DNA from: Thalassotalea sp. PS06
GTDB taxonomy: Bacteria > Pseudomonadota > Gammaproteobacteria > Enterobacterales > Alteromonadaceae
Length of the DNA stretch: 64,000 bases
Reading direction: 5' to 3'
Assembly: GCF_007197775.1 (NCBI RefSeq)
Contig: NZ_CP041638.1
Span: forward strand, 1,860,001-1,924,000
Shown here piece after piece: positions 17,532-40,100 of this stretch (the first letter of the stretch is position 1; each line of letters begins with the position of its first letter). The notes under the pieces are model-generated. The model ran no database searches. It saw only the letters and a program-made list of their open reading frames with translations, and was not told where the DNA came from. The position numbers and the translations under genes are program-made.

Positions 17532-17696
17532 ATGAATATGGCTGCAATAAACAAGGATGTATTAGACAAAAGCAATGATGAATATGGCGGTTATAAACAC
17601 GGATGTTTTGTATGCCGCCACGCCATGGACGACGCTAAAAGCAAAAAACCCGCTGTTAAGCGGGTTTTTAAATATGGCGGTGAGATAGGGATTTGA
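17532..17696 (+). CDS. Possible 54-residue small protein reading through the hairpin repeat
   Basis: An open frame begins ATGAATATG with AAGGA 11 bp upstream and contains KHGCFVCRHAMDDAKSKK. It runs through the tRNA terminator and ends inside the tRNA-Ser 3' end. The same peptide frame stays open in the repeat array at 18.7-19.2 kb. The overlap with an antisense tRNA and the strong hairpin content make structural DNA or RNA the better explanation; kept at low confidence. Confidence 0.2.
   Translation: MNMAAINKDVLDKSNDEYGGYKHGCFVCRHAMDDAKSKKPAVKRVFKYGGEIGI
17592..17634. repeat. Single copy of the structured repeat next to tRNA-Ser
   Basis: ATGGCGG...ATAAACACGGATGTTTTGTATGCCGCC can pair ATGGCGG-type with CCGCCA-type arms around an inner AAACA/TGTTT stem. 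It matches the units of the array at 18.7-19.2 kb and, like them, is followed by an AAAAAACCCGC hairpin. Confidence 0.6.
17643..17667 (-). terminator. Terminator of tRNA-Ser
   Basis: On the minus strand AACCCGCT-TAAC-AGCGGGTT followed by TTTTT, directly after the tRNA-Ser 3' CCA. Confidence 0.85.
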
Positions 17697-17765
17697 ACCC
17701 TAGAGGCGCTATTAACGCCTGCCGGTTTTCAAGACCGGTGCTTTCGACCACTCAGCCATCTCACC
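17675..17765 (-). tRNA. tRNA-Ser(TGA)
   Basis: 91 nt including an encoded CCA. Acceptor GGTGAGA pairs with TCTCACC; the anticodon loop is CTTGAAA (anticodon TGA) within CCGGT/ACCGG. The long class II variable arm has stem GGCG...CGCC, and the T arm holds GGTTCAAATCC. The variable arm differs from that of the second tRNA-Ser(TGA) at 40352. The 5' flank TGAAGTGGTGCGAATATTA recurs beside the tRNA fragment at 40536. Confidence 0.97.
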
Positions 17766-18661: not shown

Positions 18662-18952
18662 TGGCGCGAAAAAAACACAAGCGGTTATAAACAGGGAAGT
18701 TTTGTATGTCATCATTCCAGGGATGGTTTAAATGATGACGATAAACAGGGAAGTTTTGTATGTCATCATTCCAGGGATGGTTTAAATGATGACGATAAAC
18801 AGGGAAGTTTTGTATGTTATCATTCCAGGGATGGTTTAAATGATGACGATAAACAGGGAAGTTTTGTATGTCATCATTCCAGGGATGGTTTAAATGATGA
18901 CGATAAACAGGGAAGTTTTGTATGCCGCCATGCCATGGATGGCGCTAAAAGC

Positions 18953-18979
18953 AAAAAAACCGCTAGTATAGCGGGTTTT
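18953..18979 (-). terminator. Terminator-like hairpin inside the repeat array
   Basis: AAAAAAACCGCTAGTATAGCGGGTTTT resembles the tRNA-Ser terminators on either side, but no tRNA follows it. It is probably a relic of duplication of a terminator-plus-repeat block. Confidence 0.6.
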
Positions 18980-19151
18980 CTAATATGGCGGTTATAAACA
19001 CGGATGTTTTGTATGTCATCATTCCAAGGATGGTTTAAATGATGACGATAAACACGGATGTTTTGTATGTCATCATTCCAAGGATGGTTTAAATGATGAC
19101 GATAAACAGGGAAGTTTTGTATGCCGCCATGCCATGGATGGCGCTAAAAGC

Positions 19152-19177
19152 AAAAAACCCGCTAATTTAGCGGGCTT
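19152..19177 (-). terminator. Orphaned terminator of the split tRNA-Ser
   Basis: AAAAAACCCGCTAATTTAGCGGGCTTT lies 8 bp beyond the 3' CCA of the displaced tRNA-Ser fragment, just as the terminator at 17643 follows the intact gene. It would terminate tRNA-Ser again if the island excised. Confidence 0.75.
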
Positions 19178-19183
19178 TCAAAA

Positions 19184-19245
19184 GTGGCGGTGAGATAGGG
19201 ATTTGAACCCTAGATACGCTACAAACGTATGCCGGTTTTCAAGAC
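19184..19245 (-). repeat. attL: displaced 3' part of tRNA-Ser(TGA)
   Basis: 62 bp identical to 40351-40412: CCA end, T arm, variable arm and anticodon loop of tRNA-Ser(TGA), ending GGTTTTCAAGAC. Beyond this point the sequence departs from the tRNA. It is the original chromosomal 3' end left behind when the island entered and supplied its own copy. Confidence 0.92.
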
Positions 19246-19285
19246 AGAAGCTAACTCCAATTATATCAAAAGGTTAATGACAATA

Positions 19286-19403: not shown

Positions 19404-19679
19404 AAATTAACACTGGCGCCAGCAAATTGTACCAATATTTTAAATTTAGATGGTATTCGGAGTTATTACTCGAAGCAGTTAAAAATGGTCCTTCATCGTC
19501 CGGGGGGTTGATGGCCAAAATTAGGTCTCATTTTTCAAAGAAATTAAAGAAAAGATGACTAGTAATATGGCTAAGCTTTACTTTGCTATGCGTGCCCTAC
19601 AATATTACTACAATTAAAGTCAATTGGACTTACGATGGAGTTTTAAGATAACAACGTGAATTTCAAGCTGTCCATACGT
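19404..19679. other. Gene-free left region of the island
   Basis: AT-rich DNA. A 15-codon frame, MAKIRSHFSKKLKKR, starting near 19511 resembles the beginning of a transposase helper frame but stops at once. The paired words AGTAATAT and ATATTACT around 19560-19612 could form a weak hairpin. Probably insertion-sequence debris; nothing else is supported. Confidence 0.3.
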
Positions 19680-19734
19680 GTAGTAGCTCAGACCTGATCT
19701 GACAGTTACCCCATTTTTAGACAAGGTATCTGTC
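19680..19734. repeat. Direct repeat, left copy, flanking the helicase module
   Basis: GTAGTAGCTCAGACCTGATC... through GGTATCTGTC. It matches 22718-22771 with a single one-base indel (CCCC against CCC). The two copies bracket the XRE-nuclease, small protein and helicase genes. Confidence 0.85.
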
Positions 19735-19758
19735 GGCTGGCTGCTGAGCTAATACAGT

Positions 19759-20442
19759 TTAAATAATATCTTTAAGTTGTTTAAGAAGATTTTGTCCATT
19801 ATTGTCTTTCTTTACAGCCCTCAAAAACAAACAAGTATCCTGGCTATGTTTTGCATGCAGTTCTCCAACATGTTTATTTTCTGTGGAATCATCATTAGCT
19901 TCGTCAGTTTTTTCTTTACATTCAATTACTAAGATTCGACCGTCATGTAGTTCAGCGATAAAGTCAGGGTAAATATTACTATTGCCTAAAGTTAAGCTAA
20001 ACGAGGTTTCATCTCTTCTAGGTAAGTTTCTAACCCATCGCTTTACTTCGGGCATTGAATCAAGCGTTTGTGCACAGTCAAATTCTTCACTGTTTGATTT
20101 CATATCCTCTATCCTAGGATAATAGTATTTTGAGAAGCTATATTGCCCTTGATAATTAGGTTGTATTGCAGGGTAGTTATCTGCATTGAATTCGAGGCTA
20201 GTCAAAACATCTTCTTCAAATTCTATTTCTCGTAAGCGCGGTAAAAGCTCATGAGGATCACAGCCTAACTCTCCACATATCTTATAAAGCGTTTCTAACG
20301 TAATGTTAGTTTTTCCCCGTTCTATTTTCCCATAATAGGCTCGCGCTATTTCAACTCTTCTAGCAAAGTTCTCCTGCGATATTCTTAGACTCTCTCTTAC
20401 CTTTCTAATTCTAGACCCAACGACTTTTGCTAATTGATTCAT
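19759..20442 (-). CDS. XRE-family regulator fused to a type III Res-like PD-(D/E)xK nuclease domain
   Basis: 227 residues. Residues 7-72 are a helix-turn-helix of the XRE type (ISQENFARRVEIARAYYGKI, ERGKTNITLETLYKICGELG). Residues 115-227 match the C-terminal endonuclease region of type III restriction Res subunits: ECAxxLDSxPEVKxWVRNL is seen as DCAQTLDSMPEVKRWVRNL, followed by YPDFIAEL (D160), ILVIECKEK (E174, K176) and HVGELHAKHS. So the catalytic PD...ExK triad is intact. It is divergent from the small protein and helicase genes, with a 14-bp palindrome between. Inference: a self-regulating nuclease subunit that pairs with the separate helicase. Confidence 0.8.
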   Translation of the reverse strand: MNQLAKVVGSRIRKVRESLRISQENFARRVEIARAYYGKIERGKTNITLETLYKICGELGCDPHELLPRLREIEFEEDVLTSLEFNADNYPAIQPNYQGQYSFSKYYYPRIEDMKSNSEEFDCAQTLDSMPEVKRWVRNLPRRDETSFSLTLGNSNIYPDFIAELHDGRILVIECKEKTDEANDDSTENKHVGELHAKHSQDTCLFLRAVKKDNNGQNLLKQLKDII

Positions 20443-20480
20443 AAAGTTAGTCCGCTAGTTACAAAATAGACATATTTGCA

Positions 20481-20511
20481 TATTGAGCTCAATAAGTACA
20501 CGTCTTATAAT
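20481..20511 (+). promoter_or_regulatory. Promoter with overlapping palindromic operator
   Basis: TTGAGC (20483-20488), 17-bp spacer and TATAAT (20506-20511) form a near-consensus sigma-70 promoter driving the small protein and helicase. A perfect palindrome TATTGAGCTCAATA (20481-20494) covers the -35 box. It lies between divergent genes, one encoding an XRE regulator, so repression by that protein is the natural reading. Confidence 0.7.
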
Positions 20512-20546
20512 GCTCACCTGTGATTTTTTGTATGGGAAAGTTGTAT

Positions 20547-21059
20547 ATGAAGTTAGATCCCTTCGTCGCTGAAATACTCTTGATGGAAAACATAGACCAT
20601 TTCACAACGAGCGACATTCGAACCGGCTATATCTTGCTGAAAAAAGACAATACTCTGGATTCAGCATCAACGAGACGTTTTATTTACAGCGAGTTACTCA
20701 AACTCGTTAAAAAAGGGTGGCTTAAGAAGGTCATCTCTAAGAAGAAAGAGTTAACGAGCTTTATTAAAACGGATTTGATTGACTTTACTGTTTTACGAGA
20801 AATTTCGAATAAAAAGGTTGTGAGTAGTGAAAACGTTAGCGCTTCGAAGCTTGACGCGTTAAAAAAACGATTAACGGCATGCAAAAATGATTTTCTCATT
20901 TGTGTGGGGGAATATGAGGCGTATGAGGAGATTTCTGCAGAGATGCCTGAATTTAATTCAGACATTCAGAGTGAATATAACCTTCTATGCGAGCGCCAAA
21001 CAAAGCTGCTTGGAAAAATAAAACGCTTTGAGATATTTATCAATCAACACAAAACATAG
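20547..21059 (+). CDS. Small protein between the XRE-nuclease and helicase, unknown function
   Basis: 170 residues, not recognised. The N-terminal 75 residues look like a winged-helix fold (AEILLMENIDHFTTSDIRTGYILL, RRFIYSELLKLVKKGWLKKV). The C-terminal part (95-170) is a charged amphipathic helix pair, probably coiled coil. ATG 20547 is chosen because GGGAAAG precedes it by 6 bp; GTG 20520 and ATG 20532 are in frame but lie at or next to the predicted transcription start. Stop is 9 bp before the helicase start, so the two are one transcript. Confidence 0.72.
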   Translation: MKLDPFVAEILLMENIDHFTTSDIRTGYILLKKDNTLDSASTRRFIYSELLKLVKKGWLKKVISKKKELTSFIKTDLIDFTVLREISNKKVVSSENVSASKLDALKKRLTACKNDFLICVGEYEAYEEISAEMPEFNSDIQSEYNLLCERQTKLLGKIKRFEIFINQHKT

Positions 21060-21068
21060 GTAATGTAA

Positions 21069-22451
21069 ATGAAATTAAGAACCTGGCAGGCTGACTTTAT
21101 CCAGTCTGCTTTAATGAAATACTCAAATGGGCAAAAGCACTTTTTGTGTCTTGCTACACCAGGAGCCGGCAAAACGCATGCAAGTTCTGTCTTAACGCAA
21201 CAGCTATTTGAAAAACAAATGATCGATTTAGTCGTCTGCTTTTCACCGTCAAGTATAGTAGCCCATGATTTTTGTATTTCTCTTGAGACTTTAACTGGAG
21301 AAAGGTTTGACGGTAAGTTAGGAGCCAAAGGCCGCTCAATGACGTATCAATCTATGGGATACCTAGACGACGATTTTTGGCATCTGTTTATAAATTATCG
21401 CATTTTTGTGATTTTTGATGAAATTCACCATTGCTCCGGTGAAGATCTGGATGCATGTAATGTATGGGGAAAACACATCATAGAATACATATGTGAACAT
21501 GCTAGTTTTACGCTTTCCCTAACAGGTACTCCTTGGCGTTCGGACGAAACACCGATTGCGCTAGCTGAATATGACGAATCAGGTAAAGCTCTATGTGATT
21601 TTGTATATGGACTATCTGATGCGATTATCGATGGCGTATGCCGTATTCCACAAATCGTGGTTTTAGACAACGATAACATCGAGGTAACTAAAAAAGGTAA
21701 GAAAAAAGAATATGAAAGCTTGAAGCCGGTGATTAGTTCTAAAGTGCTGTCTTACTCAAGGTTTATTAAGAATGATGAGATCATTCATGAACTTTTGTCG
21801 CTTGCTGTTGAAAAGCTAGATTGCATTCGAAAGATTAATCCTGACGCAGGAGGCTTGATTGTTGCCGCTTCGGTTGAGCACGCCCATCAAATTGCGGATT
21901 TACTGTATGAACGCTTTTTTGAACCTAGTATTGTTGTCACATATGAAGAAGATAAGCCGTCCGAGATAATACGCCAGTATCGGTATGGTAGCGGTAAGTG
22001 GATAATTAGCGTTGGAATGATCAGTGAGGGAACCAATATCCCCAGGCTCCAAATATGTTGCCATCTTAGTAAAATTAAAACTGAATTGTATTTTCGACAA
22101 ATTTTAGGACGCATTCTTCGCATGACTAGCTCTCCTAATCAAGACGCTTTCCTTTTTATGCTGAATGATCCTGTATTAGTTGAGTATGCTGAACGAATTG
22201 CTGAAGATATCCCTGATCAATCTAACGTTGTAGTTTTTGAGGGAAGTACACATGGAGGTTCGGAGGCAGACGATGAAAACGAAAGCAAGAAGAAGAAAAG
22301 AAACAACCCGCCACCGGAGATCACACTCACGGTCGCTAGCTCATTTAACATTTTGTCATTAGTCGATAACTCTGCTCTGCGATATGGCTACGACAATTCG
22401 GTAAACATATTTGGGCGATTCAAAGAGGAATTTCTCGATATTGGCTTGTAG
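21069..22451 (+). CDS. SF2 DEAD/DEAH-box helicase (restriction-type)
   Basis: 460 residues, both RecA-like domains present. Motif I TPGAGKT (30-36), motif II DEIH (117-120), motif III SLTGTPWR (150-157), motif V VGMISEGTNIP (315-325) and motif VI QILGRILR (344-351). The shape is that of the translocase part of restriction enzymes (Res/HsdR/UvrB-like) without a nuclease. A basic linker KKKKRNNPPP precedes a short C-terminal tail. AGGTAATGTAAATG gives an acceptable ribosome site. With the divergent Res-like nuclease it could form a split restriction-type complex; no methylase is encoded nearby. Confidence 0.85.
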   Translation: MKLRTWQADFIQSALMKYSNGQKHFLCLATPGAGKTHASSVLTQQLFEKQMIDLVVCFSPSSIVAHDFCISLETLTGERFDGKLGAKGRSMTYQSMGYLDDDFWHLFINYRIFVIFDEIHHCSGEDLDACNVWGKHIIEYICEHASFTLSLTGTPWRSDETPIALAEYDESGKALCDFVYGLSDAIIDGVCRIPQIVVLDNDNIEVTKKGKKKEYESLKPVISSKVLSYSRFIKNDEIIHELLSLAVEKLDCIRKINPDAGGLIVAASVEHAHQIADLLYERFFEPSIVVTYEEDKPSEIIRQYRYGSGKWIISVGMISEGTNIPRLQICCHLSKIKTELYFRQILGRILRMTSSPNQDAFLFMLNDPVLVEYAERIAEDIPDQSNVVVFEGSTHGGSEADDENESKKKKRNNPPPEITLTVASSFNILSLVDNSALRYGYDNSVNIFGRFKEEFLDIGL

Positions 22452-22565
22452 TTATAATGGATTAAGTTCTTGTTCATCAGACACTGTGTATACTACGCAT
22501 GCATAATGGAATTTAAGCAACTTTAGTTTGCCTCAGCTCGACCCTAAATCGAAAGATGCCTCATT

Positions 22566-22771
22566 AAAAATCGGGTAACTATCAAATAAGGTCTGAGCTG
22601 AATCAAATCAAACGTTGCAATTCTAAATTTGACAAGGTGGGGAATTGATTGCGTTTCGCGGGTTTGAGATTCAGAAGCACCAAGACACTTAGCTGAATCT
22701 TTTCACATAACTCATATGTAGTAGCTCAGACCTGATCTGACAGTTACCCATTTTTAGACAAGGTATCTGTC
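22566..22771. mobile_element. Insertion-sequence-like remnant with inverted ends
   Basis: AAAAATCGGGTAACTATCAA...GGTCTGAGCT near 22568-22602 is a diverged inverted copy of the repeat at 22718-22771 (AGCTCAGACC...GTTACCCATTTTT). The two would be the ends of an element of about 206 bp, with no transposase inside. The rest of 22452-22878 shows nothing I can name. Confidence 0.45.
22718..22771. repeat. Direct repeat, right copy, flanking the helicase module
   Basis: 54 bp, the partner of 19680-19734. Both copies read in the same direction, so recombination between them would remove the three-gene module. Confidence 0.85.
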
Positions 22772-22878
22772 AGTTTAGATTTGAGCTCCCTACTCTCCCT
22801 TGTGAGCATGTTCAGGATACTTGAAGTACACAGATAAATTAGCTCACTTATTGCGCCAGAAGCAAATCACAATTAATA

Positions 22879-23253
22879 CTAAAAGCGCTGTTTAATATCA
22901 ATAGCTATAGCTTTCCAGCCCCAGCTTGATCTTTTATTGTTGTAATTTAAGACGGCTTTTCCCGAAACAGTATCGCCGTCTTTCACCTCATACTTTTCAA
23001 TTAATTTTCGGTCAATAAAAATGTCCGCAGAAGTGAAGCCAAGCCCATTAGAAATACGAACTTCACCACTAAATTCCTTTAAAACATTAGTATTCGGCTG
23101 TTGATCAGATTTCTTAATAGTTAACGCTTGATATTTACTACCATGTTTAGTCTTGGACTTTGAAAGCTTCGCGTTAATTGAATCACCAATACTTAATCGC
23201 CCCGGTGTTTTTGAAAATGGAATGACGGTGTCGACACCTCTATCAAAAATCAC
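22879..23253 (-). pseudogene. Fragment of an OB-fold/cold-shock-like protein
   Basis: 124 residues from a GTG. The open frame continues upstream as VGIVDHVNSAKKLVHV, with the typical start of an OB-fold, to a TAG about 23318 without an ATG. A second OB-like unit follows (EFSGEVRISNGLGFTSADIFI, DGDTVSGKAVL). The N-terminus therefore looks cut off at the terminator of the DUF2130 gene. It may be the C-terminal remnant of a larger protein, or translated from a rare start. Confidence 0.45.
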
Positions 23254-28027: not shown

Positions 28028-28945
28028 TTAAAAAGTCACATTCGCTGAATCAGAAACATCAAACGCTTTCAATTCACAATATTGCTCGAATCGCTTACTA
28101 AAGATTTCTTCATTAAGCATAACCACATCATCATTCACTTCCGAATGACGCTCATCCAACCCAATACCCCAGAAAAGAGCACCAAGCTCACTAATGATGT
28201 ACCTGTTGTGCAAAGCTTCACCGTTATCTCTCTCTTTCAATGACGTGACCGTTAACGAAGCAATGCCCGTTGAATTAAAGTCGTTATGCGTAGTTATTGC
28301 ATCCATCAAGAATTGAATCGAAGGTACGTCAGTACGGTCTTTTAGCAATATAGTAATTTCCTTACTTTCAACGGGTGAGTTAGCACCGCAAAACTCTATA
28401 AATTTGACCATTGGATTTAACATGGCTGCTCGATGGCTAAAATATGGGTCAACAAAGGTAATTCGAGAAGATAGTCTAAGGAAATCAGAAGTTGCCTGTA
28501 CCATTTCATCCAAGCTTTTTTGTACTAATTTTTGATTGGGCAGTGGGTTAATACCATTATTCAAATCTGCCGAGTAAATAAAACCTATGCCGCCCACAGC
28601 TTGACCTGCTGGTTCATTTAAACAAAAGATATGCGAGGGTGATTGTTGATGCGCGTTGATGCAATTTTCGAGAAAGCTGAGATTTCCATCGATTCCAGAG
28701 TTCCTGTCTACTAAACAAGTCTCTTCAATAAATTGAAGTAATTCGATCAACATGGTTTGCTGATCTTCATTTACTGCTTCGCCCTGCACTTGAAGCGTTT
28801 TTTTTCTGAACTTACTAAACTTTTGTAACTTACCAACAACTCTCGGCGATTGTCTTGAAAACTCTCTAAGAAAGTCATTGAAATTTCGACGAGACGAAAC
28901 AACCTGAGTTAAGAATTCCGGCTCAATCAAATGCTCCACTAACAT
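28028..28945 (-). CDS. PLD-like protein paired with a DUF3696 ATPase
   Basis: 305 residues. The C-terminal half has a phospholipase-D-like layout: RITFVDPYFSHRAAML (strand ending in D-P-Y-F), EITILLKDRTD, and LHNRYIISELGALFWGIGLDE, where HNRY stands at the place of HxK with Lys replaced by Arg. Only one such motif is present, so a dimer would be needed for catalysis, or it is a binding domain. ATG shares a base with the stop of the ATPase gene (TAATG), so the two are tightly coupled. Family not recognised by name. Confidence 0.6.
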   Translation of the reverse strand: MLVEHLIEPEFLTQVVSSRRNFNDFLREFSRQSPRVVGKLQKFSKFRKKTLQVQGEAVNEDQQTMLIELLQFIEETCLVDRNSGIDGNLSFLENCINAHQQSPSHIFCLNEPAGQAVGGIGFIYSADLNNGINPLPNQKLVQKSLDEMVQATSDFLRLSSRITFVDPYFSHRAAMLNPMVKFIEFCGANSPVESKEITILLKDRTDVPSIQFLMDAITTHNDFNSTGIASLTVTSLKERDNGEALHNRYIISELGALFWGIGLDERHSEVNDDVVMLNEEIFSKRFEQYCELKAFDVSDSANVTF

Positions 28946-30729
28946 TACAAATATTCCTCTCTGCGTTCAGAGAAGAAGCCTTGAGGCCACTTAGAAGTGA
29001 ATTCACCGTCTTCATCTAGTTTGATTCGTCGGGTGATAACACCCTCGTCAGACGGCTCAAAGTAAACAATAGAAATGTCATCTTTATCAACAGGCTTAAA
29101 CCCTTCTGGCAACTCTTTATCCGTTGTTTGTCTAACACGCTTTCTCAAGCGAAGTATTAAATGTTCGCTGTGTGTTTCAATCAAGAAATTAGTTGCTCGC
29201 CCGGTTTGAGTTAGTAGGTCCCCAATGGCGACTTGTATTCTGGGATGAACATGCAGTTCTGGTTGTTCGCAAGCTACAACCCTCTTATTTCTGCTAAGTG
29301 CAGCTACCACCAATGGCATTAGCTGTGAAATACCGACACCAATATCACTTGGCGTCACAGACATTCGGTTACTTAAATCAAATAGTGAATATGTGTAGTT
29401 TGTTTTTACTTCGTCTGGGTGAGGGACTCTAGTGGCTCCCTTTAAATCTTCAGATATGATACGCTTTAGTTGCTCTTCGGCTGGAGAAAAGGATCCAGAA
29501 GGGCTGAACCTTTTTATCTCGGCGTAATGTTTTTCGACTCGGTGAGCTAAGCCATAGCCTAAACCTAATTTATTTTCATTGGAGATCCACTCATCAACTG
29601 CAGTAATTAGCTCGCTATCACCTCTAGCTAATACGTCCCACGCTGCCAAACCGTCATGCCAATCTTTTTGTTCTACATATGGATTTGGTTGATGTAAGAA
29701 ATCTGGAATTCCTCGCAAAGGGCCTATGCACAGGCTGTCATTTAACAACTTTTTAAGGTTATCTAATGGCGCGACAAGGATATCGCTTAGCAACTCAACA
29801 AACACTTCGTTTTGTTTTTCATTATCCAAGCTTAGTGATGACTTAAGTTTTCGACCCAATGGAGGTAACGCGCCCGATAGTCCCTCAATACCAATAGGAA
29901 CATGAATTAAAGTTTCACCTTCAACAACAACCATATTGTCAGCACTATCAAATTGATTGCTGATGTCTCGCTCGTTATTCAAAGCTTCTTGAAGTGGACT
30001 AACAAAACAGTCATCCGTAAACAAAAGGTCTTTATCGTCTCCTTCAAACGGCCTAGCTGCACCATCTTTGATTTCATGATGGCTTGGATTATAGAGGTTA
30101 AGTAAATCGAGCAGCTTATCGTATAAAGCATTGCTAATTGGCATATCATTTTCGAAACAATCGATTAACCACTCATCGTGATCGTCTGGTAATAGGAGAG
30201 GATGCAAATAGTTTAAGCTGGTTATTTGCGGTTGCTTTAATCCCGCATCCGATGAGACTTCGGCAATTTCAATTCCGTCAAACCATATTTTATAGTTGGC
30301 GATATAAGCTGTTTGATGCTGTTCTACCCAAGAGATAACAAATTCTAATGTCACCTTTTCAACATCAATAACCGGGCTACTGATACGAACGTCAAGCTCA
30401 CCTTCTTCAAGCAAATCGGCTAGAAAGTCATAACTACTGCCAACTCGATTACCTTTGTCGTATTCGATTTTTAGGGTGATAGATTGATTTAAGTTTCTGC
30501 GGTGAACTAAGTTTTTAAAGCCGCCTACTAATTTACCACCTAAAGCTTCAATACGTTGTGGATCACATTGGCCTTTATCCAATATTTGTTGAAGATAAAA
30601 CAGCGCCATCAATACCGAGCTTTTACCGACACTGTTTGGGCCAAATAATAAAGTTACTGGTGCAAACTCAATGGTTTGCTCCTGTTTAAATGATTTAAAG
30701 TTGGTTAACGATAATTTTGTTATTCTCAT
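28945..30729 (-). CDS. SMC-like AAA ATPase with C-terminal DUF3696
   Basis: 594 residues from ATG 30729. Walker A FGPNSVGKSS (29-38) in the RecF/SMC-like context ITKLSLTNFKSF. The signature region ends in the D-loop/Walker B zone VVACEQPELHVHPRIQ and the H-switch FLIETHSEHLILRLRKR. The tail KWPQGFFSERREEYL is DUF3696. There is no TOPRIM nuclease domain as in OLD/GajA proteins, so the PLD-like partner is the likely effector. An upstream GTG (30759) would add ten poorly conserved residues. Confidence 0.82.
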   Translation of the reverse strand: MRITKLSLTNFKSFKQEQTIEFAPVTLLFGPNSVGKSSVLMALFYLQQILDKGQCDPQRIEALGGKLVGGFKNLVHRRNLNQSITLKIEYDKGNRVGSSYDFLADLLEEGELDVRISSPVIDVEKVTLEFVISWVEQHQTAYIANYKIWFDGIEIAEVSSDAGLKQPQITSLNYLHPLLLPDDHDEWLIDCFENDMPISNALYDKLLDLLNLYNPSHHEIKDGAARPFEGDDKDLLFTDDCFVSPLQEALNNERDISNQFDSADNMVVVEGETLIHVPIGIEGLSGALPPLGRKLKSSLSLDNEKQNEVFVELLSDILVAPLDNLKKLLNDSLCIGPLRGIPDFLHQPNPYVEQKDWHDGLAAWDVLARGDSELITAVDEWISNENKLGLGYGLAHRVEKHYAEIKRFSPSGSFSPAEEQLKRIISEDLKGATRVPHPDEVKTNYTYSLFDLSNRMSVTPSDIGVGISQLMPLVVAALSRNKRVVACEQPELHVHPRIQVAIGDLLTQTGRATNFLIETHSEHLILRLRKRVRQTTDKELPEGFKPVDKDDISIVYFEPSDEGVITRRIKLDEDGEFTSKWPQGFFSERREEYL

Positions 30730-30778
30730 ATAATTATTCTTTTTGAGCCAACAGCTCACATCCTTGTTGATTAGTTAC

Positions 30779-30875: not shown

Positions 30876-31970
30876 TCATAATTCACCAGTAAAGGCTTTT
30901 TGGCACAGCGCATTAAACAAACCACTTTTATCTAACATCGAATTATCAACTTTAGAACGCATCGCCAAAAATTGTTTTTTTACAATTGAGAACTTTACTT
31001 GCTCTTGCAACGGCGGAATTATCATTTCAAGTGGATATATTCTGTTCCCAGAAACTAGGGGTTGCGCTGCTTTACCAGCATACTGATTTAAATTAGCCAA
31101 TTCCAAAAGTTGAGCTATATAATCAATGTTAATTTCTTCTAGGTACTCTTTGACAAACAGTGCGTTATCAGTGACCCAAGACTTAGGTTTCGTAATGTGT
31201 ATAGCTCCACAATAAACTCCTACTCTCCCTATTATCAATTGGGGTTCATCAAACATATATTGAGAGTGCCTACCATTTATTCCATTACCACCATAAACAT
31301 TGTATTCCCCATCAGAATCCATATTTTTAGCCGTTAATCCTTTACCACTTGATAGTTTGAACACTTTAGCTAAAGGCTTTTTTTCCCATCCCTTCGGATT
31401 AGTAACAGGATCACCGAACATATTTAGGAATACGCTGCGGAGGAACTCGTCGGCTAGGTTGATGGCTTTTTGGCGTTTACGGCGCACGCTGTCGGCTTTA
31501 TCTAAAATCGAAGCGATTCGTTTTTGCTCATCAAGTGGTGGTAGTGGAATCTGATGCTCCCAAAACACTTTCATAGATACGCGAGGCATCTTTGCACCAG
31601 CAACTTGATCACTTATCCAGCTCACAAACTGATTAGATTTTAAATAATAAGCTAAATATTTTCTATCCAACCTGTTTTCATCAGGGCACAAAGGTACTAA
31701 TTCTGTGGTAGCTAATCCTTGCTCATCTGGCAGGACTACTTTGTTCAAATAAGGGCGTAATTTTGAGTAAAGTACATGTCGCTCATCAAACCAATGTGTA
31801 GAAGAGCCTGCCGATTCAACCGAGTCATAAACTTTTTCTATCACTATTCCAGATTGTGATTGGACTTTATCTAGATTAAGCTGCCAAACAGAGTCCTCAT
31901 TGGTTATATCAGGATTTTTTAGTGGTTTTGAAGGCGCAACTTCACCTAAAGAAACTAGTTGCCAACTCAC
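30876..31970 (-). CDS. hsdS: HsdS, type I restriction specificity subunit
   Basis: 364 residues. Two target-recognition domains separated by the conserved spacer helix: QIPLPPLDEQKRIASILDKA near residues 136-155, then LADEFLRSVFLNMFGDP; the second TRD ends with IPPLQEQVKFSIV. Each TRD reads one half of a bipartite DNA site. The C-terminus, AFTGEL, is standard. It overlaps hsdM by 4 bp. The second half is rather short, so the second TRD is compact. Confidence 0.92.
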   Translation of the reverse strand: MSWQLVSLGEVAPSKPLKNPDITNEDSVWQLNLDKVQSQSGIVIEKVYDSVESAGSSTHWFDERHVLYSKLRPYLNKVVLPDEQGLATTELVPLCPDENRLDRKYLAYYLKSNQFVSWISDQVAGAKMPRVSMKVFWEHQIPLPPLDEQKRIASILDKADSVRRKRQKAINLADEFLRSVFLNMFGDPVTNPKGWEKKPLAKVFKLSSGKGLTAKNMDSDGEYNVYGGNGINGRHSQYMFDEPQLIIGRVGVYCGAIHITKPKSWVTDNALFVKEYLEEINIDYIAQLLELANLNQYAGKAAQPLVSGNRIYPLEMIIPPLQEQVKFSIVKKQFLAMRSKVDNSMLDKSGLFNALCQKAFTGEL

Positions 31971-33508
31971 AGCATCTTCTCCAGATCTTTTAAGTCAGCT
32001 AATATTTCATTTTCTAAGCTAACTAAATTTGCCAGAATATCTTTTGGATCGTCATGCTCTTCCTGCTGGTAAACCACTTCTTTATAGCGATTAATCGACA
32101 AGTCGTATTTATTAGAAACTATCTCGTCTTTACTCACCCAAAATGCTTTTTTGGTTTTATCGTTTGTCTCAGTGTCAGCAATTGCTTTATCACGGGCTTT
32201 AAACTTGGCTACTAAATCAGGAAGATCATTATCTTTTATCGGTGTACGTTTGTCGTCTAGTGAGAAGCCATCGGCTTTTAAATCATAAAACCAAACATGG
32301 TCTGTTTGAGAGCCTTTGGTAATAAAAAGAACAGCGGTAGATACCCCTGCGTATGGTTTAAATACACCGGATGGTAATGAAACAACACCTTGAAGTTCAT
32401 TATTTTCAACTATGTGTTTACGTAGTTGTTGATGTGCATTTGATGAACCAAATAGTACGCCATCAGGTACTATAATCGCCGCTTTACCACCGTTTTTAAG
32501 TAAACGAAGAATTTGCGCGACAAACAATAGCTCTGTCTTCTTGGTTTTCACCATACGCAATATTGCAGGGTCTACGTCTTCTTCATCTAATGAGCCTTTG
32601 AACGGTGGGTTGGCTGCACATATGGTATAAGAATCTTTACTTTGCGTTGGGAAGCGCTCTGTAAAGCTACCACTTAACGTGTCTTGGTAATGAATATCAG
32701 GCTCAGTCACGCCATGCATGACTAGGTTCATCGCGGCGATACGTAACATGGTAGTATCAAAATCGAAGCCATGAAACATATCGGTGTTTACATGATCGCG
32801 ATGCTCAACCAATAAATCACCACTAAAGATTTTTACCTTTTGCTCTTCGCCTTTTTCATTCACTACTGTTTCAGTATGAACACCTTCTGGTGACGTGTAT
32901 TTCTCCATTAAATACTCATAGGCCACCGTTAAAAATCCGGCTGTGCCACAGCTAGGATCGATAATACGATCTTCATGTGTTGGGTCTAGCATTTCGATCA
33001 TGGCGCGAATGATATGGCGCGGTGTTCTAAACTGACCATTAATCCCTGCTGTTGTTAACTTGCTAAGCAAGTATTCGTATAAATCACCTTTGGTATCGCT
33101 GTCTTCCAATGGCAATTTGTTGATCATCTCAACTGCGGATTCCATTAACGTTGGTTTTTGGATCATGCATTGTGCGTCTTTCATAAACCCAGCAAACAAT
33201 GAACCTTCACCCGAAGTGCTTTTGAAATGAGGAAATACCTCATCACGCACCTCTTTTAACATGCTGTCTTTATCTTGGTGGATGAAGCGGTGCCAACGAA
33301 TATGTTGTTGGTCTTCACTAAAACGGCGCTTGAACTCTCCACCTCTTAGCTTTTGGCGTTTTTCGTCGCGCTGCTCGTGTAAGTCGAGCAAACGGGCATA
33401 CATTAAAAAAGTGATTTGTTCGATTACGGTGAGTGGATTAGCAATGCCGCCCGTCCAGAACTCTTCCCATAACTTGTCAATATCGCTTTTTAATTTACCA
33501 GTGATCAT
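31967..33508 (-). CDS. hsdM: HsdM, type I adenine methyltransferase
   Basis: 513 residues. N-terminal HsdM helical domain (LWEEFWTGGIANPLTVIEQI), SAM motif I IIDPSCGTAGFLTVAYEYL, and the N6-adenine motif IV NPPF in CAANPPFKGSL. The order SAM motif then NPPF is that of gamma-class amino-methylases. With HsdS it methylates the host site and with HsdR forms the restriction complex. It is 22 bp downstream of hsdR. Confidence 0.95.
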   Translation of the reverse strand: MITGKLKSDIDKLWEEFWTGGIANPLTVIEQITFLMYARLLDLHEQRDEKRQKLRGGEFKRRFSEDQQHIRWHRFIHQDKDSMLKEVRDEVFPHFKSTSGEGSLFAGFMKDAQCMIQKPTLMESAVEMINKLPLEDSDTKGDLYEYLLSKLTTAGINGQFRTPRHIIRAMIEMLDPTHEDRIIDPSCGTAGFLTVAYEYLMEKYTSPEGVHTETVVNEKGEEQKVKIFSGDLLVEHRDHVNTDMFHGFDFDTTMLRIAAMNLVMHGVTEPDIHYQDTLSGSFTERFPTQSKDSYTICAANPPFKGSLDEEDVDPAILRMVKTKKTELLFVAQILRLLKNGGKAAIIVPDGVLFGSSNAHQQLRKHIVENNELQGVVSLPSGVFKPYAGVSTAVLFITKGSQTDHVWFYDLKADGFSLDDKRTPIKDNDLPDLVAKFKARDKAIADTETNDKTKKAFWVSKDEIVSNKYDLSINRYKEVVYQQEEHDDPKDILANLVSLENEILADLKDLEKML

Positions 33509-33530
33509 AGTGTTCTCTTTTCAATTCTAA

Positions 33531-36500
33531 TTAGTCTTTAAAAGACGTATCTAATTTGTTTAACGGTGTTGGTAGCTCTAGAGACTTTAATAATGAAAAA
33601 ACGTCATCTTCACCGCTACCAAGCACACCCTCATATATTCTGTTGTAAGGCGCTTTGTCTAAGTCCGCAATTTTAATACCACCGCTTCTGGCAATGTGCC
33701 CAATCAACATATCGATGATACGCATCGCCTGAGGTGGCATCCGATGGTGTTGCAATAAAACCGTGAAACTCTGTTCAATATATTTAGCATCCATGCCAAC
33801 AATACTGCGGAGCAACTTATCTAATGGCTCAGTAGTATCTGGGTAAAACGTTTTAAGCGTTTCAATATCCAGGTCTGCATATTTGGCATGAATAACGCCA
33901 TTGAGTTGCACAATTTCATCTTCAGTTACAGGCTGCCCATTTCTGATTTTTTGAATAACTGGATCACTTTCAAAAATCGGCTCTAACGCTTCCTGCACTT
34001 TTTGCTGATAGATTTTGTAGTCAACCGTATGAATATTTGTAGCTCTAGTTCTAATTTCTATTTCAGTTTCATCCTCTGGAATATCTGTATATGTAGGGCC
34101 GAGATTTGGCGGCAGGATTTCACCTTCAAGCAAATACATGATGTCTCTTAACGCAATACGATGTTGCTCCAGAGCATCAAAGGTGATGCCGTGCCAATTA
34201 TTGTCATCCATCAAAAACTTGATTTCAACGGCTTTGGCCTGCACTTGAGCTGTATTTTTTGGCAGGCGTTCTAACACACCTTTAATTTCAAATTTAAGCT
34301 CACCAATTGCTTGAGGATTGAGTAATAGTTCTGTTTGTGTTTGAGCAATTAAACAATCCCAACGGAGAGCTTTACTTTGCCCACGAATATCAAGCCAGTT
34401 CATCAATCGCGCAATTTCACTTTCAAGTAAGGCGACTGTTGGCTTGGCAAATTGCTTTAACAGCTTAGCGTCTGACATTTGTTCAACGAGTTGCCAATTG
34501 TCTCGCACATTAATGTTCTTAGTATCTAAGGCTATTATGTCTTGTTGAATTAACTTAATTACTGTTTCAAACGCAGGGATTTCTAGTTTATTTAGCGCAC
34601 TTGACGCTAGTAACATCCTTAACTCGAAACGCTTTTGCGCCAGTGATTTACTATTGGTTGGCTCGACTTCTTCGTATTCAAATTCGAAGTAATCAAAGTT
34701 GTTCCAATGGTCGAAAATTAGGAAACGTGTTTTATGTTTTCCTTTACCAAATAAATCTTCACATAGGCGTGTACCACGGCCTATCATTTGCCAGAACTTA
34801 ACCTTCGATTTTACAGGTTTGGCAAAGACAAGGTTTACCACACTTGGCACATCAATCCCGGTATCTAACATATCAACGGATATCGCCAGCGTGATCGGAT
34901 CTGGTAACGAAGGATCTTTTGCCTTTTCTTCCTCAGTCACTTTAAACTGATCGATCAATGCTTCAGCTCTTGGCTCATCTGAGTGAATAACTTCACAAAA
35001 GCCATTACTGAGCTCTGGGTACATTTCATCGAACAGTTCTTTAAGCAAACGAGCGTGGTCGATTCGTCTGGCAAAGATAATCGACTTACCAATGAATTGA
35101 TTGTCTTTGTCCTTGATACCATTTTCCATTAAGTTGCGGAGGACTTTTCGGTTGGTATCTTTGTTTAAAATGACCTTATCAATGTCTTTTGAGTCAAACT
35201 CAAGTTCGTTTGGGTCTACACCTTGGTCTTCCAATTCCGCTATTTGTTCATCGGTCAAAGAGCGTTGATTAATTCCATCGCGCATGAACTTGGTTGTCAT
35301 TGTGACAATTTCATACGGCACTAGGTGATCTTCTTCTATTGCTTTTTCCAACGGATAATTAGCCGTGGGGTCTTTATAACCACAGTCGAATAATTGACAG
35401 GTGGAGCGTGAAACCATTTCTACTGGGGTTGCGGTTAAGCCAACTTGTAAACAATCAAAATATTTAAAAATATTGCCAAACACGTTGTAGATTGAACGGT
35501 GTGATTCATCGGCAACGATTAAATCAAAATAGCCAACGTCAAATTTTTCATAGATGCCCATCATGCCAGGATACGTAGCGATAAAAATACGAGCCGTGCT
35601 TTCGTATTTTTTATCACTTTTACCTACTACGTAAGGCTTAACACCTAAAAACTCGACAAAAGCCTGTTCTGCCTGTTTGCGCAATTCTTTCCTGTCGCAT
35701 AAAAACAGAATGCGCTTTGCCCATTTAGCATCTTGCAGAGATTTCGTTAGTGCAATTGAAACACGCGTTTTGCCCGTACCCGTTGCTTGAACGATTAACG
35801 CTTTTCTGCGCTTTTTCTCAAATGTATCATGTACGCGAGAAATGGTTTCTAACTGATAACGGCGACCAGCAATACCAGCATCAATGGTGACATCTGATAG
35901 CTTTTTCTTTTCTACTAGCTGGAATTTAACCAAATGTTGCAATGAGCTTTTTGAGTAGTAACCATAGATTTTTCTTGGCGGGTAACCTTGAACGTCATCC
36001 CATATATATATGTCATGTCCATTGGTGTAAAAAATCACAGGTCGCTGCCCATGTTCCTTTTCTAAACCATCGGCATAATCTTTCGCTTGCTTCTTACCAA
36101 TACGTGCATCTTTTGACGTTTTCTTAGCTTCAACAACAGCCAAAGGCAGTCCATCGTCATCCCACAGAACATAATCTACAGAGCCATTACCTGACTCTGT
36201 AGGTTGATACTTAACTGGTACTTCTTGTCCAACTTCGTCAGTTGATACTGCATTTTCTGCAACATCCCAACCGACTTCACGCAATTCCATATCAATAAGG
36301 TATTTGCGCGTTTCCGCCTCGCTGAAATCCAGCGTTTTAGAGATAGATTGGCTATTGGTTGTAAAGGCTTCAAATACAGGCTCGTTACGAGTTGCCGCAG
36401 CCTGTTTCGATTCAGCTAATATTCTTTCGTTGACTAAGCGTTGTTCTTCCAACTCAGCCATTGCTTGCTGATAAAGGTCGTCACTTTTTTCTAATTTTTT

Positions 36501-36947
36501 CTTTAATTTGCTCGCCGCTGAAATATCGGTATTAAACTCAATAAATTCAGGCACAGTATCCGCTTTGACATTGTGATAGCTACAATAAAACCACGCCCCT
36601 AATTGATAAGATTGTTTAACGCCAAACACAGCATCTTTATCAGTTCCTTTGTTTTCATGAGCAGCCTTATTACCCAATGTTTTAATCGCGTGAAATTTAT
36701 CTAAAACAGGTGCAGACGCTAGTTGTATAAAGTCTTCACCGATTAACTTTTCGTGGAATGTAGCTTTTGGCAAGCAAGGTAAGTTCAATTTACGGTAAAT
36801 AAAGTTCACCATAAATTCACCGAATGAACGTAGCTTAATTAGCGCACTTTGAGGGTCGCTAAACGCGTATTCTTCAGCGTAAGCACCAAAGTCGGCTAAT
36901 TCAGGCCAGTCTTTTCTTAAGAACTCAAAATTCATGGATTGCTTCAT
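33531..36947 (-). CDS. hsdR: HsdR, type I restriction endonuclease/translocase
   Basis: 1138 residues (EcoEI/type IB-like). It starts with a DUF4145-like helical region, then the nuclease core YVLWDDDGLPLAVVEAKKTS (D...ExK), SF2 motor motifs ATGTGKTRVSIAL, VADESHRS, GLTATPVE, and QMIGRGTRL, and the EcoEI-type C-terminal domain. It translocates DNA and cuts when it meets unmethylated sites. A second ATG four codons in (36935) is equally plausible; the first has AAGGA 9 bp upstream. First gene of the restriction run. Confidence 0.93.
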   Translation of the reverse strand: MKQSMNFEFLRKDWPELADFGAYAEEYAFSDPQSALIKLRSFGEFMVNFIYRKLNLPCLPKATFHEKLIGEDFIQLASAPVLDKFHAIKTLGNKAAHENKGTDKDAVFGVKQSYQLGAWFYCSYHNVKADTVPEFIEFNTDISAASKLKKKLEKSDDLYQQAMAELEEQRLVNERILAESKQAAATRNEPVFEAFTTNSQSISKTLDFSEAETRKYLIDMELREVGWDVAENAVSTDEVGQEVPVKYQPTESGNGSVDYVLWDDDGLPLAVVEAKKTSKDARIGKKQAKDYADGLEKEHGQRPVIFYTNGHDIYIWDDVQGYPPRKIYGYYSKSSLQHLVKFQLVEKKKLSDVTIDAGIAGRRYQLETISRVHDTFEKKRRKALIVQATGTGKTRVSIALTKSLQDAKWAKRILFLCDRKELRKQAEQAFVEFLGVKPYVVGKSDKKYESTARIFIATYPGMMGIYEKFDVGYFDLIVADESHRSIYNVFGNIFKYFDCLQVGLTATPVEMVSRSTCQLFDCGYKDPTANYPLEKAIEEDHLVPYEIVTMTTKFMRDGINQRSLTDEQIAELEDQGVDPNELEFDSKDIDKVILNKDTNRKVLRNLMENGIKDKDNQFIGKSIIFARRIDHARLLKELFDEMYPELSNGFCEVIHSDEPRAEALIDQFKVTEEEKAKDPSLPDPITLAISVDMLDTGIDVPSVVNLVFAKPVKSKVKFWQMIGRGTRLCEDLFGKGKHKTRFLIFDHWNNFDYFEFEYEEVEPTNSKSLAQKRFELRMLLASSALNKLEIPAFETVIKLIQQDIIALDTKNINVRDNWQLVEQMSDAKLLKQFAKPTVALLESEIARLMNWLDIRGQSKALRWDCLIAQTQTELLLNPQAIGELKFEIKGVLERLPKNTAQVQAKAVEIKFLMDDNNWHGITFDALEQHRIALRDIMYLLEGEILPPNLGPTYTDIPEDETEIEIRTRATNIHTVDYKIYQQKVQEALEPIFESDPVIQKIRNGQPVTEDEIVQLNGVIHAKYADLDIETLKTFYPDTTEPLDKLLRSIVGMDAKYIEQSFTVLLQHHRMPPQAMRIIDMLIGHIARSGGIKIADLDKAPYNRIYEGVLGSGEDDVFSLLKSLELPTPLNKLDTSFKD

Positions 36948-36993: not shown

Positions 36994-38508
36994 CTATTTT
37001 TCAGGTTCATTTTCAGAGATCATCTTCAACCGCTTCATCATATTTCTTAGATTTTGATGATTACCCAAACTTAACATTTCCGCACTTTTAACGCGGCCAT
37101 TCCCCGTCGCTTTTAACGCCGCCTCTACGTATTTTTTTTCTATATTTTCAATGATTTGCTTCAAGTTCACCACATCACCGTAGGCTAAGTGTATGTCATG
37201 GTCTTGTTGCTTATTTTCTCGGTTTATAAGCGCATTTTGAATATCTAAATCAAATATCTCATCGTTATCCGAAAGTAGTAAAGCTCGATTCAAGGTACTC
37301 CACAGTTCGCGGATATTTCCTCGCCAAGGTTGGGACAATGTAAACTTCATTCCCTTATTGGAAATTATTTTACTTTTATAATTTTGATGCTTTTGTGCGT
37401 TATCATTAATTTCTTTTGCTAAGGCGTTTACCAAGGGCTCGATATCTTCAACTCGATTTCTTAAAGGTGGGATTTCAATAACACCAAGTGCCAATCGATA
37501 AAATAAATCTTCCCGGAACTCTCCGCACTCCACCATGCCAACCAAGTTGCGATGCGTAGCGGCAATAACTCTGACATCAACGGTTATCGTTTTGTCATCG
37601 CCAACACGAGTGATCTCACCTTGTTGTAATGCCCTTAATAGCTTCACTTGGACATCTAATGACAATTCACCTACTTCATCTAGAAATAATGTTCCACCGT
37701 CTGCTTGCTCGAATACACCTTTATGTTCTTTTACAGCACCGGTGAAAGCCCCTTTTACATGCCCAAACAGGATGGAATCAACGAGGTTTTGGGGCAAAGC
37801 GCCGCAGTTGACCGTTTTCATCGGTTGTGAAGCACGACTGCTCGCTTTATGAATTGCATTGGATATCACTTCTTTACCGGTGCCGGTTTCGCCTAATACC
37901 AATACAGGTAAATCAAGAGGGGCTAATTTCGATGCTTTATTTACAACCTCAAGCATTGGAGGAGAGACAGCAATGATGTCTTCAAACGCTTTGTTATTGG
38001 TCGGTAATTTAGTCGCTTTAGAAGAGATCGCCCTCGCAACTGATGCATCATGTTCTGCTACAAAGTCAAAAGGAATGTCATCTAAAAATATTTCTCTTTG
38101 GCGATTTGATTGGTAAAAATATGTATTGGTTTTACCTTTACCCAATATAATGCTTACGGCAGACATAGCGGGCGAGCCAGAAGTAAGGTTTATATAGAGC
38201 TCATCGCTCTCACTTGAAAGTTTGTTGATCCACTTTTGTGATTGTTTGGATATGGAGACGTAATCGATTGGACTGGTAATACTAACCGTGTGACCTTGAA
38301 CCACTTGAAAAGGTCGCTGGGCTATTGCGAGTTTTTTTTCCAACCAGGGAACATAGTTACGCCTTTCCTCTTCCCATTTATTCGAGATGATTACGATTTG
38401 ATCAAACGGTTCAGGATGCTTCAACGCGATATTGGAAATCGGAGAGTCAGTATCCTGATTCATACCGTCAACATCAGCTTGACCAAACCACGTAAAAAGA
38501 GTTTTCAC
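36994..38508 (-). CDS. Sigma-54-dependent activator with CARF-like sensor domain (RtcR-like)
   Basis: 504 residues. N-terminal 150 residues have a Rossmann-like pattern: MKTLFTWFGQADVD, then ELYINLTSGSPAMSAVSIIL, where NLTSGSPAM matches the ligand loop of CARF/RtcR-type sensors. The AAA+ domain has Walker A GETGTGKE (about 204), the sigma-54 contact GAFTGA (about 253), and GGTLFLDEVGEL. A Fis-like helix-turn-helix ends the protein (RVKSAEMLSLGNHQNLRNMM). Such proteins activate sigma-54 promoters on ligand binding. It lies 46 bp upstream of hsdR on the same strand. Confidence 0.83.
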   Translation of the reverse strand: MKTLFTWFGQADVDGMNQDTDSPISNIALKHPEPFDQIVIISNKWEEERRNYVPWLEKKLAIAQRPFQVVQGHTVSITSPIDYVSISKQSQKWINKLSSESDELYINLTSGSPAMSAVSIILGKGKTNTYFYQSNRQREIFLDDIPFDFVAEHDASVARAISSKATKLPTNNKAFEDIIAVSPPMLEVVNKASKLAPLDLPVLVLGETGTGKEVISNAIHKASSRASQPMKTVNCGALPQNLVDSILFGHVKGAFTGAVKEHKGVFEQADGGTLFLDEVGELSLDVQVKLLRALQQGEITRVGDDKTITVDVRVIAATHRNLVGMVECGEFREDLFYRLALGVIEIPPLRNRVEDIEPLVNALAKEINDNAQKHQNYKSKIISNKGMKFTLSQPWRGNIRELWSTLNRALLLSDNDEIFDLDIQNALINRENKQQDHDIHLAYGDVVNLKQIIENIEKKYVEAALKATGNGRVKSAEMLSLGNHQNLRNMMKRLKMISENEPEK

Positions 38509-38729: not shown

Positions 38730-39059
38730 TTAAAATAAAGTCTCTATTCTATTTTAAAAATGTAAATGACGTCTCCTTTTAAAAAAATTTCTTTTAAAAA
38801 CTTGCGCACAACTGAACATGTATCTATAGTGTATATTGGGTTATTTTTTTCTGATTATCTGTGCTATACTTCTTACATATGACGTGTGGGGAGGGGCTCG
38901 GTGTGATTAATGATTTAAACCATGTTTTAGTGCCGTATCTCAGGTACGTTAAACCTGAGAAAGTGTTGCTACGACAGTATGCCTTAAATTTTGTTATACC
39001 CCCTCTTACCTACCGAAGAATCACCAGTAAGTTCGCAATACAATCCAGACGGTTTCTCA

Positions 39060-40100
39060 ATGGCCAGAAAGCGCGCTGATCCCGCCGACGCTTGGATGCC
39101 ACCACGCGTATATCGTGGGCGTTCCGCTTTTGAGTTCCGGGCAAGAAACGGTAAAACCATTCGTTTATGCGGTTTAGATTCGCCAAAATCTCAAGTTTGG
39201 AAAAATTATGAAGAGCTTGATAAACGAAATCTCAAGTTCAAAGACACATTCGAAAAATTGTTAATCGACTATTACGAAAGTCCGCAACATGCGCAAAAAA
39301 AGCCAGCGACAAAGCAAAGCTACGAAGACTACAAAAAAGATCTGCTGAAGCACTTTGGTTCGATGAAAGCCAGGACCATTGGCCCTCGACACGTTAGAAA
39401 ATTTCTCGACGAAAAATATGAACGCTCCGGCGCAACACAGGCCAATCGTCATAAATCAGCGCTGAGCGTAATTTTCAGTTGGGGGTTTGAGCGAGAGAGA
39501 GTCGAGCGAAATCCATGTGTGGGGATCAAAAAATTCAAAGAAACGCCACGAGAAGTTTATATCGAAGATGATGACTACAAATTGATGTTAAAGCATGCCG
39601 ATCCACCACTTGAGGCTGCAATGGAAATCGCTTATTTGTGTATGGCGAGAAATATGGATGTACGTAACCTTAAAAAAGCCGATTGTTTGCAAGAAGGTGT
39701 GTATATTTGCCAATCAAAAACCAACAAGAAGCAAATAAAACGCTGGGGGAAGCGACTGAGAGCTGCCGTGAAACTGTGTGATCAGCATTTTAAAAGTAAT
39801 AACTCGCTGTTTGTCGTGCATCAAGAAGATGGCAGCAAATATTCTCACAGCGGTTTAAACAACCTTTGGCGTAAAGCGAAGAAAAAAGCCGAGAAAGAGC
39901 TTGGACGCACGATAAATTTTACGTTTCATGATATCAAAGCCAAAGGCATTAGCGATTTTGAAGGTTCGGAAGAACAAAAACGTGAAGCTGCGGGTCACAC
40001 CAACGTAGCACAAACCCGAGATTACAACCGAAAAACGATGGTCGTGGACACCGTAGAAACCGCTAGCCAAGAACCAAAGAAAAAAACCAAAAAACCTTAA
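39060..40100 (+). CDS. int: Tyrosine-recombinase integrase of the island
   Basis: 346 residues from ATG 39060. N-terminal arm-binding part (MARKRADPADAWMPPRVYRG), then a core-binding domain (RTIGPRHVRKFLDEKYERSG), then the catalytic domain: ARNMDVRNL (Arg I), SKTNKK (Lys), FHDIKAKG (HxxK in place of HxxR), AAGHTN (GH) and TRDYNR (Tyr). It is 251 bp from the right att site, as expected for the enzyme that inserted the island at tRNA-Ser. The longer frame from 38991 has no ribosome site. Confidence 0.9.
   Translation: MARKRADPADAWMPPRVYRGRSAFEFRARNGKTIRLCGLDSPKSQVWKNYEELDKRNLKFKDTFEKLLIDYYESPQHAQKKPATKQSYEDYKKDLLKHFGSMKARTIGPRHVRKFLDEKYERSGATQANRHKSALSVIFSWGFERERVERNPCVGIKKFKETPREVYIEDDDYKLMLKHADPPLEAAMEIAYLCMARNMDVRNLKKADCLQEGVYICQSKTNKKQIKRWGKRLRAAVKLCDQHFKSNNSLFVVHQEDGSKYSHSGLNNLWRKAKKKAEKELGRTINFTFHDIKAKGISDFEGSEEQKREAAGHTNVAQTRDYNRKTMVVDTVETASQEPKKKTKKP

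Follow-up and report, generated by a model that had tools for sequence, protein, structure and literature searches.

A conserved, unnamed unit of a divergent XRE regulator, a small PadR-like protein and an SF2 helicase, with a type III Res nuclease end fused to the XRE in Thalassotalea sp. PS06

The described systems closest to a three-gene locus of Thalassotalea sp. PS06 are the type III restriction-modification (RM) enzymes, the RM controller (C) proteins, PadR and AphA, VspR, and the RadD/XPB-type helicases. The locus lies in a window of 64,000 nucleotides (NZ_CP041638.1, positions 1,860,001-1,924,000; all coordinates given here are window positions), and consists of an XRE-nuclease fusion encoded divergently from a small protein and a superfamily 2 (SF2) helicase. 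The C-terminal nuclease of type III Res has the same catalytic triad as the fusion, which aligns with the end of one such Res on the viral contig L182, whereas the fusion is distinguished by the lack of a Res helicase in the chain, changes at four strictly invariant residues, an XRE domain at the N-terminus and the absence of a Mod in the searches given below. Among solved structures, the C proteins C.AhdI and C.BclI come nearest to the XRE domain, and a palindrome is present at the window promoter; unlike the C proteins, the window XRE carries a nuclease tail, and its control of a restriction gene is putative. PadR and AphA are constructed from a winged helix-turn-helix (HTH) and a C-terminal helical pair, as is the model of the small protein, which differs from them in its 10-19% identity, a whole-chain root-mean-square deviation of 18 A and its position directly before a helicase gene. 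VspR represses the CBASS operon in Vibrio cholerae, and the passages of PMC10653837 on this role name no helicase; a homologue of the small protein bears the annotation vspR_2, and the unit on plasmid L231 stands beside CBASS, a likeness by annotation only. XPB and RadD appear among the weak PDB matches of the window helicase, which scored 32.5 bits against the RadD model with its cut-off of 720, while phrog_16 is a broad family and the window helicase belongs to a narrower, tight group of 40-50% identity.

The open reading frames (ORFs) of the locus and the two parts of the fusion are as follows.
19759-20442, minus strand: XRE-nuclease fusion ORF, 227 amino acids (aa).
20218..20442, minus strand: XRE/HTH_3 domain, residues 1-75, a controller-protein-like repressor by Pfam HTH_3 and PDB matches.
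19759..20217, minus strand: C-terminal PD-(D/E)xK part of a type III Res, residues 76-227 and the stop, by PADLOC REase_III, with the triad kept.
20547-21059, plus strand: small-protein ORF, 170 aa; the listed start is GTG at 20520 and the best start, by eye, is ATG at 20547.
21069-22451, plus strand: SF2 helicase ORF, 460 aa, with Pfam ResIII above its cut-off.

A divergent XRE, a PadR-like protein of about 175 residues and an SF2 helicase of about 460 residues constitute a conserved and hitherto unnamed unit. A helicase alignment was searched against one genome per species (tblastn, E 1e-3), which yielded 495 stretches with a relative, and the best 80 were kept; a scan of the genome contigs with a single helicase had found nothing. 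Among these 80 loci, a closed helicase ORF was present in 79, the small gene in 75, and the small gene together with a divergent XRE (68-138 aa) in 72, so that the window and 72 of the 80 share the divergent XRE, the adjacent small gene and the SF2 helicase. For the most part, the profile of the small gene derives from the same 80 loci; with the window small protein as a lone query, the gene was found in 76 of them, in L084 and L089 in two pieces. As for the incomplete loci, L111 is devoid of the XRE, L135 has no closed helicase ORF, and L100, L136 and L137 offer fewer than 700 bases upstream of the helicase. Across 73 loci, distances were correlated between small protein and helicase (rho 0.72), XRE and helicase (0.44), and small protein and XRE (0.53). 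The helicase occurs in 44 of the 295 genomes of the order, its own included, and in 72 plasmid records, where the gene order HTH, hypothetical protein, helicase match was observed in all 13 regions examined; in the Escherichia coli set, the pWL297 helicase was found in 1 of 5426 genomes, which is that same plasmid. The unit is named by no PADLOC, Pfam or NCBIfam model, nor in the literature as searched at the level of titles and abstract openings, with most subscription papers lying outside that search. In one metagenome-assembled genome (L114, 4666-6672), the small protein and the helicase form one ORF of 668 aa with an XRE-like ORF alongside, which may be a sequencing frameshift.

In all 72 full loci the XRE is a separate protein of 68-138 residues, and the nuclease was found in none of the 80 loci within flanks of up to 7 kb. 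The first-pass annotation, made from the letters of this stretch, had expected homologues of the three genes to co-occur and the nuclease to be more than a truncated relic; the former expectation held, with the XRE standing alone, while the latter did not, the nuclease having the appearance of a Res end piece.

The core residues of the Walker A, DEIHH, GTPWR(S)D and QxxGRxLR motifs vary little or not at all among 19 aligned helicases, and Pfam detected no nuclease domain in the window helicase, in agreement with the SF2 helicase free of a nuclease that had been read from the sequence. Its best family is phrog_16, DNA helicase (4.4e-38); against the PADLOC type III model it reached 0.024, and other PADLOC matches were weak. 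The small protein has no PADLOC match. It was modelled by AlphaFold2 as a winged HTH with a long helical hairpin (mean predicted local distance difference test (pLDDT) 88.3, predicted template modelling score 0.50), and its best fold matches include PadR/AphA, with scores that may mean a common arrangement only, which suggests a PadR-like winged-helix protein. Two distant helicase relatives (29-30%) on IMG/VR contigs, L157 (6800-8689) and L158 (6572-8704), have an HNH nuclease at the N-terminus, encoded within a single ORF.

The two halves of the fusion are of different descent. Residues 12-66 of the XRE correspond to HTH_3 (Pfam, E 8.7e-15), and the best PDB matches of the domain have E values of 3e-6 (C.AhdI) and 5e-6 (C.BclI). 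Residues 77-227 match positions 738-894 of the 898 of PADLOC REase_III (4.7e-34), and D160, E174 and K176 recur in 20 aligned relatives from viral contigs, so that the part is a type III Res nuclease domain both by homology and by its PD-(D/E)xK triad. Among the relatives detected, the closest is on the viral contig L182, which harbours a Res of 891 aa, a 540-aa ORF read by eye as Mod, and an integrase-like ORF. Residues 732-890 of this Res align with window residues 75-227, at an identity of 64% over 151 codons, from which it follows that the fused segment begins directly behind the XRE domain and runs to the end of the Res. The three genes, their layout and the catalytic motif are confirmed, and the type III Res origin of the nuclease is supported. 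The helicase and nuclease of a type III RM enzyme are not combined in one chain here; the nuclease part alone is present, fused to the XRE. As first reported, no Mod was found among the 16 window ORFs scanned, and a single 540-aa query (Mod by eye) matched nothing in the whole genome in a search that had no positive control.

Elsewhere, the nuclease domain terminates long ORFs: in 4 of 4 matches (879-912 aa) among 294 other genomes of the order, in 12 of 12 among 368 genomes of the class, and in 7 of 8 among 397 genomes of the phylum, the eighth being a fragment of 54 positions. No second XRE-nuclease fusion was seen in these 294, 368 and 397 genomes, which are overlapping samples with further strains of the same species outside the search. 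At least 678 open codons lie upstream in 24 of 38 viral nuclease loci, and the other 14 run off the contig. The nuclease was also found in 124 plasmid records, five of which (L003, L165-L168) were examined. The exception to the long ORFs is provided by two Methylomonas plasmids with identical letters, where a PIN domain, truncated at 57 of its 120 positions, is joined to a type III Res end; in L165 (3851-4477) this fusion lies beside a CopG-like gene, and its breakpoint is near that of the window. The structure model of the XRE-nuclease was poor (mean pLDDT 66.5, the XRE part mostly below 50), because the alignment used contained no XRE rows, and it gave no PDB match at E 0.001, the best being Card1, TnsA and McrC.

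Beyond the triad, the tail departs from the type III Res nucleases. Compared with 21 others, the window copy is changed at 4 of 20 strictly invariant positions (H106Y, Y175C, G177E and W196H), two of which adjoin the catalytic lysine, while each of the 21 others is changed at 0-1 of 16-17 such positions. With the threshold lowered to 90% conservation, 6 of 31 positions are changed in the window copy, against 5 of 32 in L174 and 5 of 31 in L176, so that it is no clear outlier there and stands out at the strictest positions only. In a six-sequence codon model with saturated synonymous sites, the window branch had a raised omega (2dlnL 8.97, p 0.003), against p values of 0.10-0.97 for the other tips tested. 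An omega of 1 on that branch was not clearly rejected (p 0.063), and both a first run and a rescaled second run brought several branches to the length bound, for which reason only the relative omega result is used. A simulated neutral tail tends to gain stops, with a probability of none of 0.017-0.24, so that complete neutrality is not favoured either. Within the limits of these tests, the tail is likely a remnant and seems to be under weakened constraint.

The intergenic region contains two candidate control elements.
20483..20511, plus strand: putative sigma-70-type promoter, TTGAGC-17-TATAAT, for the small protein and the helicase, with 10 of 12 consensus positions.
20481..20494, no strand assigned: perfect palindrome of 14 bp, TATTGAGCTCAATA, over the -35, a putative XRE operator from sequence only.
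The promoter scan overall gave fewer sites than shuffled sequences; among 23 relatives compared by eye, many have a similar -35/-10 arrangement ahead of the small gene, and a palindrome of the GGATTATAATCC type covers the -10 in 6 of the 23. Such palindromes fit putative XRE operators, and the autoregulation previously suggested for the XRE would be consistent with this arrangement of promoter and palindrome.

A further feature of the unit is the slot behind the XRE, defined as a next gene on the same strand within 600 bases, for which 71 loci had room on the XRE side and 70 on the helicase side. A slot gene occurs in 27 of the 71, and at least 11 of these 27 are PADLOC defence genes, comprising seven type I methyltransferases, two GajA (62 and 35 bases from the XRE), a SIR2 (24 bases) and a dGTPase-like gene; by a Pfam call, MmeI occupies the slot of L146. 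On the helicase side, 2 of 29 same-strand next genes are of defence type (REase_I-type and TniQ families, one member each) in the reading of a table that bears no member names. The difference gives a Fisher p of 0.003, rising to 0.009 with all loci included (71 and 70), a comparison that is incomplete in covering same-strand neighbours only; since the loci are moreover related (L089 and L095 have near-identical GajA), these p values are optimistic. The hsdM genes on the XRE side lie on the strand of the XRE in 13 of 13 loci, and those on the helicase side point three each way in six. Type I RM markers were detected in 22 of the 80 loci and any tested defence or mobile-element marker in 31, which sustains the candidate defence context of the first-pass annotation. 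On plasmids, CBASS lies on the XRE side of the L231 unit at 431 bases, and L043 has a methyltransferase and a helicase on that side.

The reading that we place just short of an even chance is that of an XRE-controlled winged-helix/helicase unit coupled to interchangeable defence operons, with the type III RM docked in the window later deleted. The XRE would bind the divergent promoter region and repress both arms, the small protein and the helicase would act as a pair on DNA, as sensor or effector, and the pair would be coupled to the operon docked behind the XRE. The operon docked in the present genome would most likely have been a type III RM (mod-res), and a deletion would have removed mod and the first ~730 codons of res, leaving the XRE joined in frame to the nuclease of the Res. 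The XRE, the small protein and the helicase would then be the working part, and the tail would probably be dispensable, given its seemingly weakened constraint. Besides the limits already attached to the slot comparison and the constraint tests, several observations weigh against this account. No locus was found with an XRE followed by a type III mod-res, the nuclease being in 0 of 80, and the deletion route is therefore inferred from the other docked operons; by the rule used, 44 of 71 loci are without a same-strand slot gene; TATTGAGCTCAATA is absent from the 23 relatives compared; and L077 and L083 are without both partners despite 7 kb upstream, L077 being the closest relative (59%). The 44 empty slots, together with the 49 of 80 loci that have none of the tested markers, are what one would expect if the small protein and the helicase were a self-standing anti-phage system that the XRE only represses, its neighbours reflecting ordinary defence-island clustering; this we consider possible but on the unlikely side, as same-strand defence neighbours are commoner on the XRE side and the XRE-side hsdM always follows the strand of the XRE. 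A portable sensor-switch, in which the pair of small protein and helicase would sense invading DNA and release a plugged-in defence operon (type I RM, Gabija, SIR2, CBASS and others) from repression by the XRE, is regarded as unlikely; such a control head for interchangeable effectors could not be matched to any named system.

The enzyme first proposed for this locus, a methylase-free split restriction system with the XRE-nuclease and the helicase acting together, draws on an intact triad in an open frame and on the HNH nucleases fused to the helicases of L157 and L158, but the nuclease was found in none of the 80 relative loci within the flanks searched, residues beside the catalytic lysine are changed, omega is raised and the helicase is not of the Res type by PADLOC, which leaves it very improbable; as a split type III enzyme it is rejected on that absence and on the helicase family. 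Raised omega also fits changed selection, and a fusion point where the homologous block of the Res end begins, a tail free of stops and the near breakpoint of the Methylomonas fusion would suit a neofunctionalised effector, a nuclease tethered or restrained by the XRE that would act once repression lifts, in the style of a toxin with its regulator; the Methylomonas PIN partner, cut at 57 of 120 positions, resembles a deletion scar, however, and a single case of the XRE fusion was found, so that this appears quite doubtful. In two Vibrio plasmids (L236 and L046), the unit is situated between TniB/TnsC-type genes, of the TnsABC type, and TniQ in Tn7-like transposons, with the type I-F Cas genes csy2 and csy3 after TniQ in L236, and in 7 of 13 plasmid loci there are, near the unit, relatives of a large protein that was encountered next to an integrase. 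It might accordingly be asked whether the unit mainly serves its carriers, Tn7-like transposons and islands of a recombinase trio ('Gamma-Mobile-Trio'), as regulator and helicase helper, but with Tns genes in 2 and the large protein in 5 of the 80 genome loci this is held to be improbable. If the unit does switch docked operons, one three-gene head would help to explain the silencing and activation of unrelated defence systems across islands, plasmids and Tn7-like transposons, and the slot behind the XRE would be a neighbourhood signature for the discovery of new defence operons; the window illustrates how a restriction-enzyme domain can become fused to such a regulator.

The immediate surroundings of the unit are marked by remnants of insertion elements.
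19679..19734, plus strand: relic 3' end of an IS481-family-like element, 96% identity to a complete genomic copy.
22535..22604, minus strand: relic 3' end of a related element, 80% identity over 22535-22599, the outer end at about 22604 by eye.
22716..22787, plus strand: relic 3' end of an IS481-family-like element, 99% identity.
Two complete copies of the element exist elsewhere in the genome, and its plasmid kin are annotated as IS481 family. The repeats at first resembled terminal repeats, and a transposon or insertion cassette was considered and rejected, since each of the three ends in the window corresponds to the 3' end of both complete copies, the one distal to the transposase, and is therefore a relic; for a passenger transposon with IS481-family ends, no 5' end match was found in the window and no target duplication was seen by eye. 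The stretch 19680-22771, singled out by the first-pass annotation, spans between two relic ends, a point absent from it, and its coordinates are thus bounded by scars, not by a transposon. At 22879-23253, a fragment from the C-terminus of a TOTE-type protein is encoded (PDC-M16B, 511-629 of 634), which may have been truncated next to the IS relic.

The wider region is delimited by the following features.
17675 and 40352: tRNA-Ser genes flanking the unit.
38991-40100: integrase.
Between the two tRNA-Ser genes, McrBC and a type I RM are also present, the type I HsdM lying 9.5 kb from the three-gene unit, and an Rfam scan of 17000-41000 gave nothing beyond the two tRNA genes. An RtcR-like CARF-AAA-HTH regulator (36994-38508) adjoins the type I RM (30876-36947), and an AAA ATPase (NsnB/PDC-M55A-like) with an uncharacterised partner of 305 aa (28028-30759) adjoins McrBC. 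Finally, repeats with 54- and 199-base spacing at 18687-19252 stand beside a degenerate tRNA-Ser piece (80% like 17643-17742), which together represent a possible nested attachment site.

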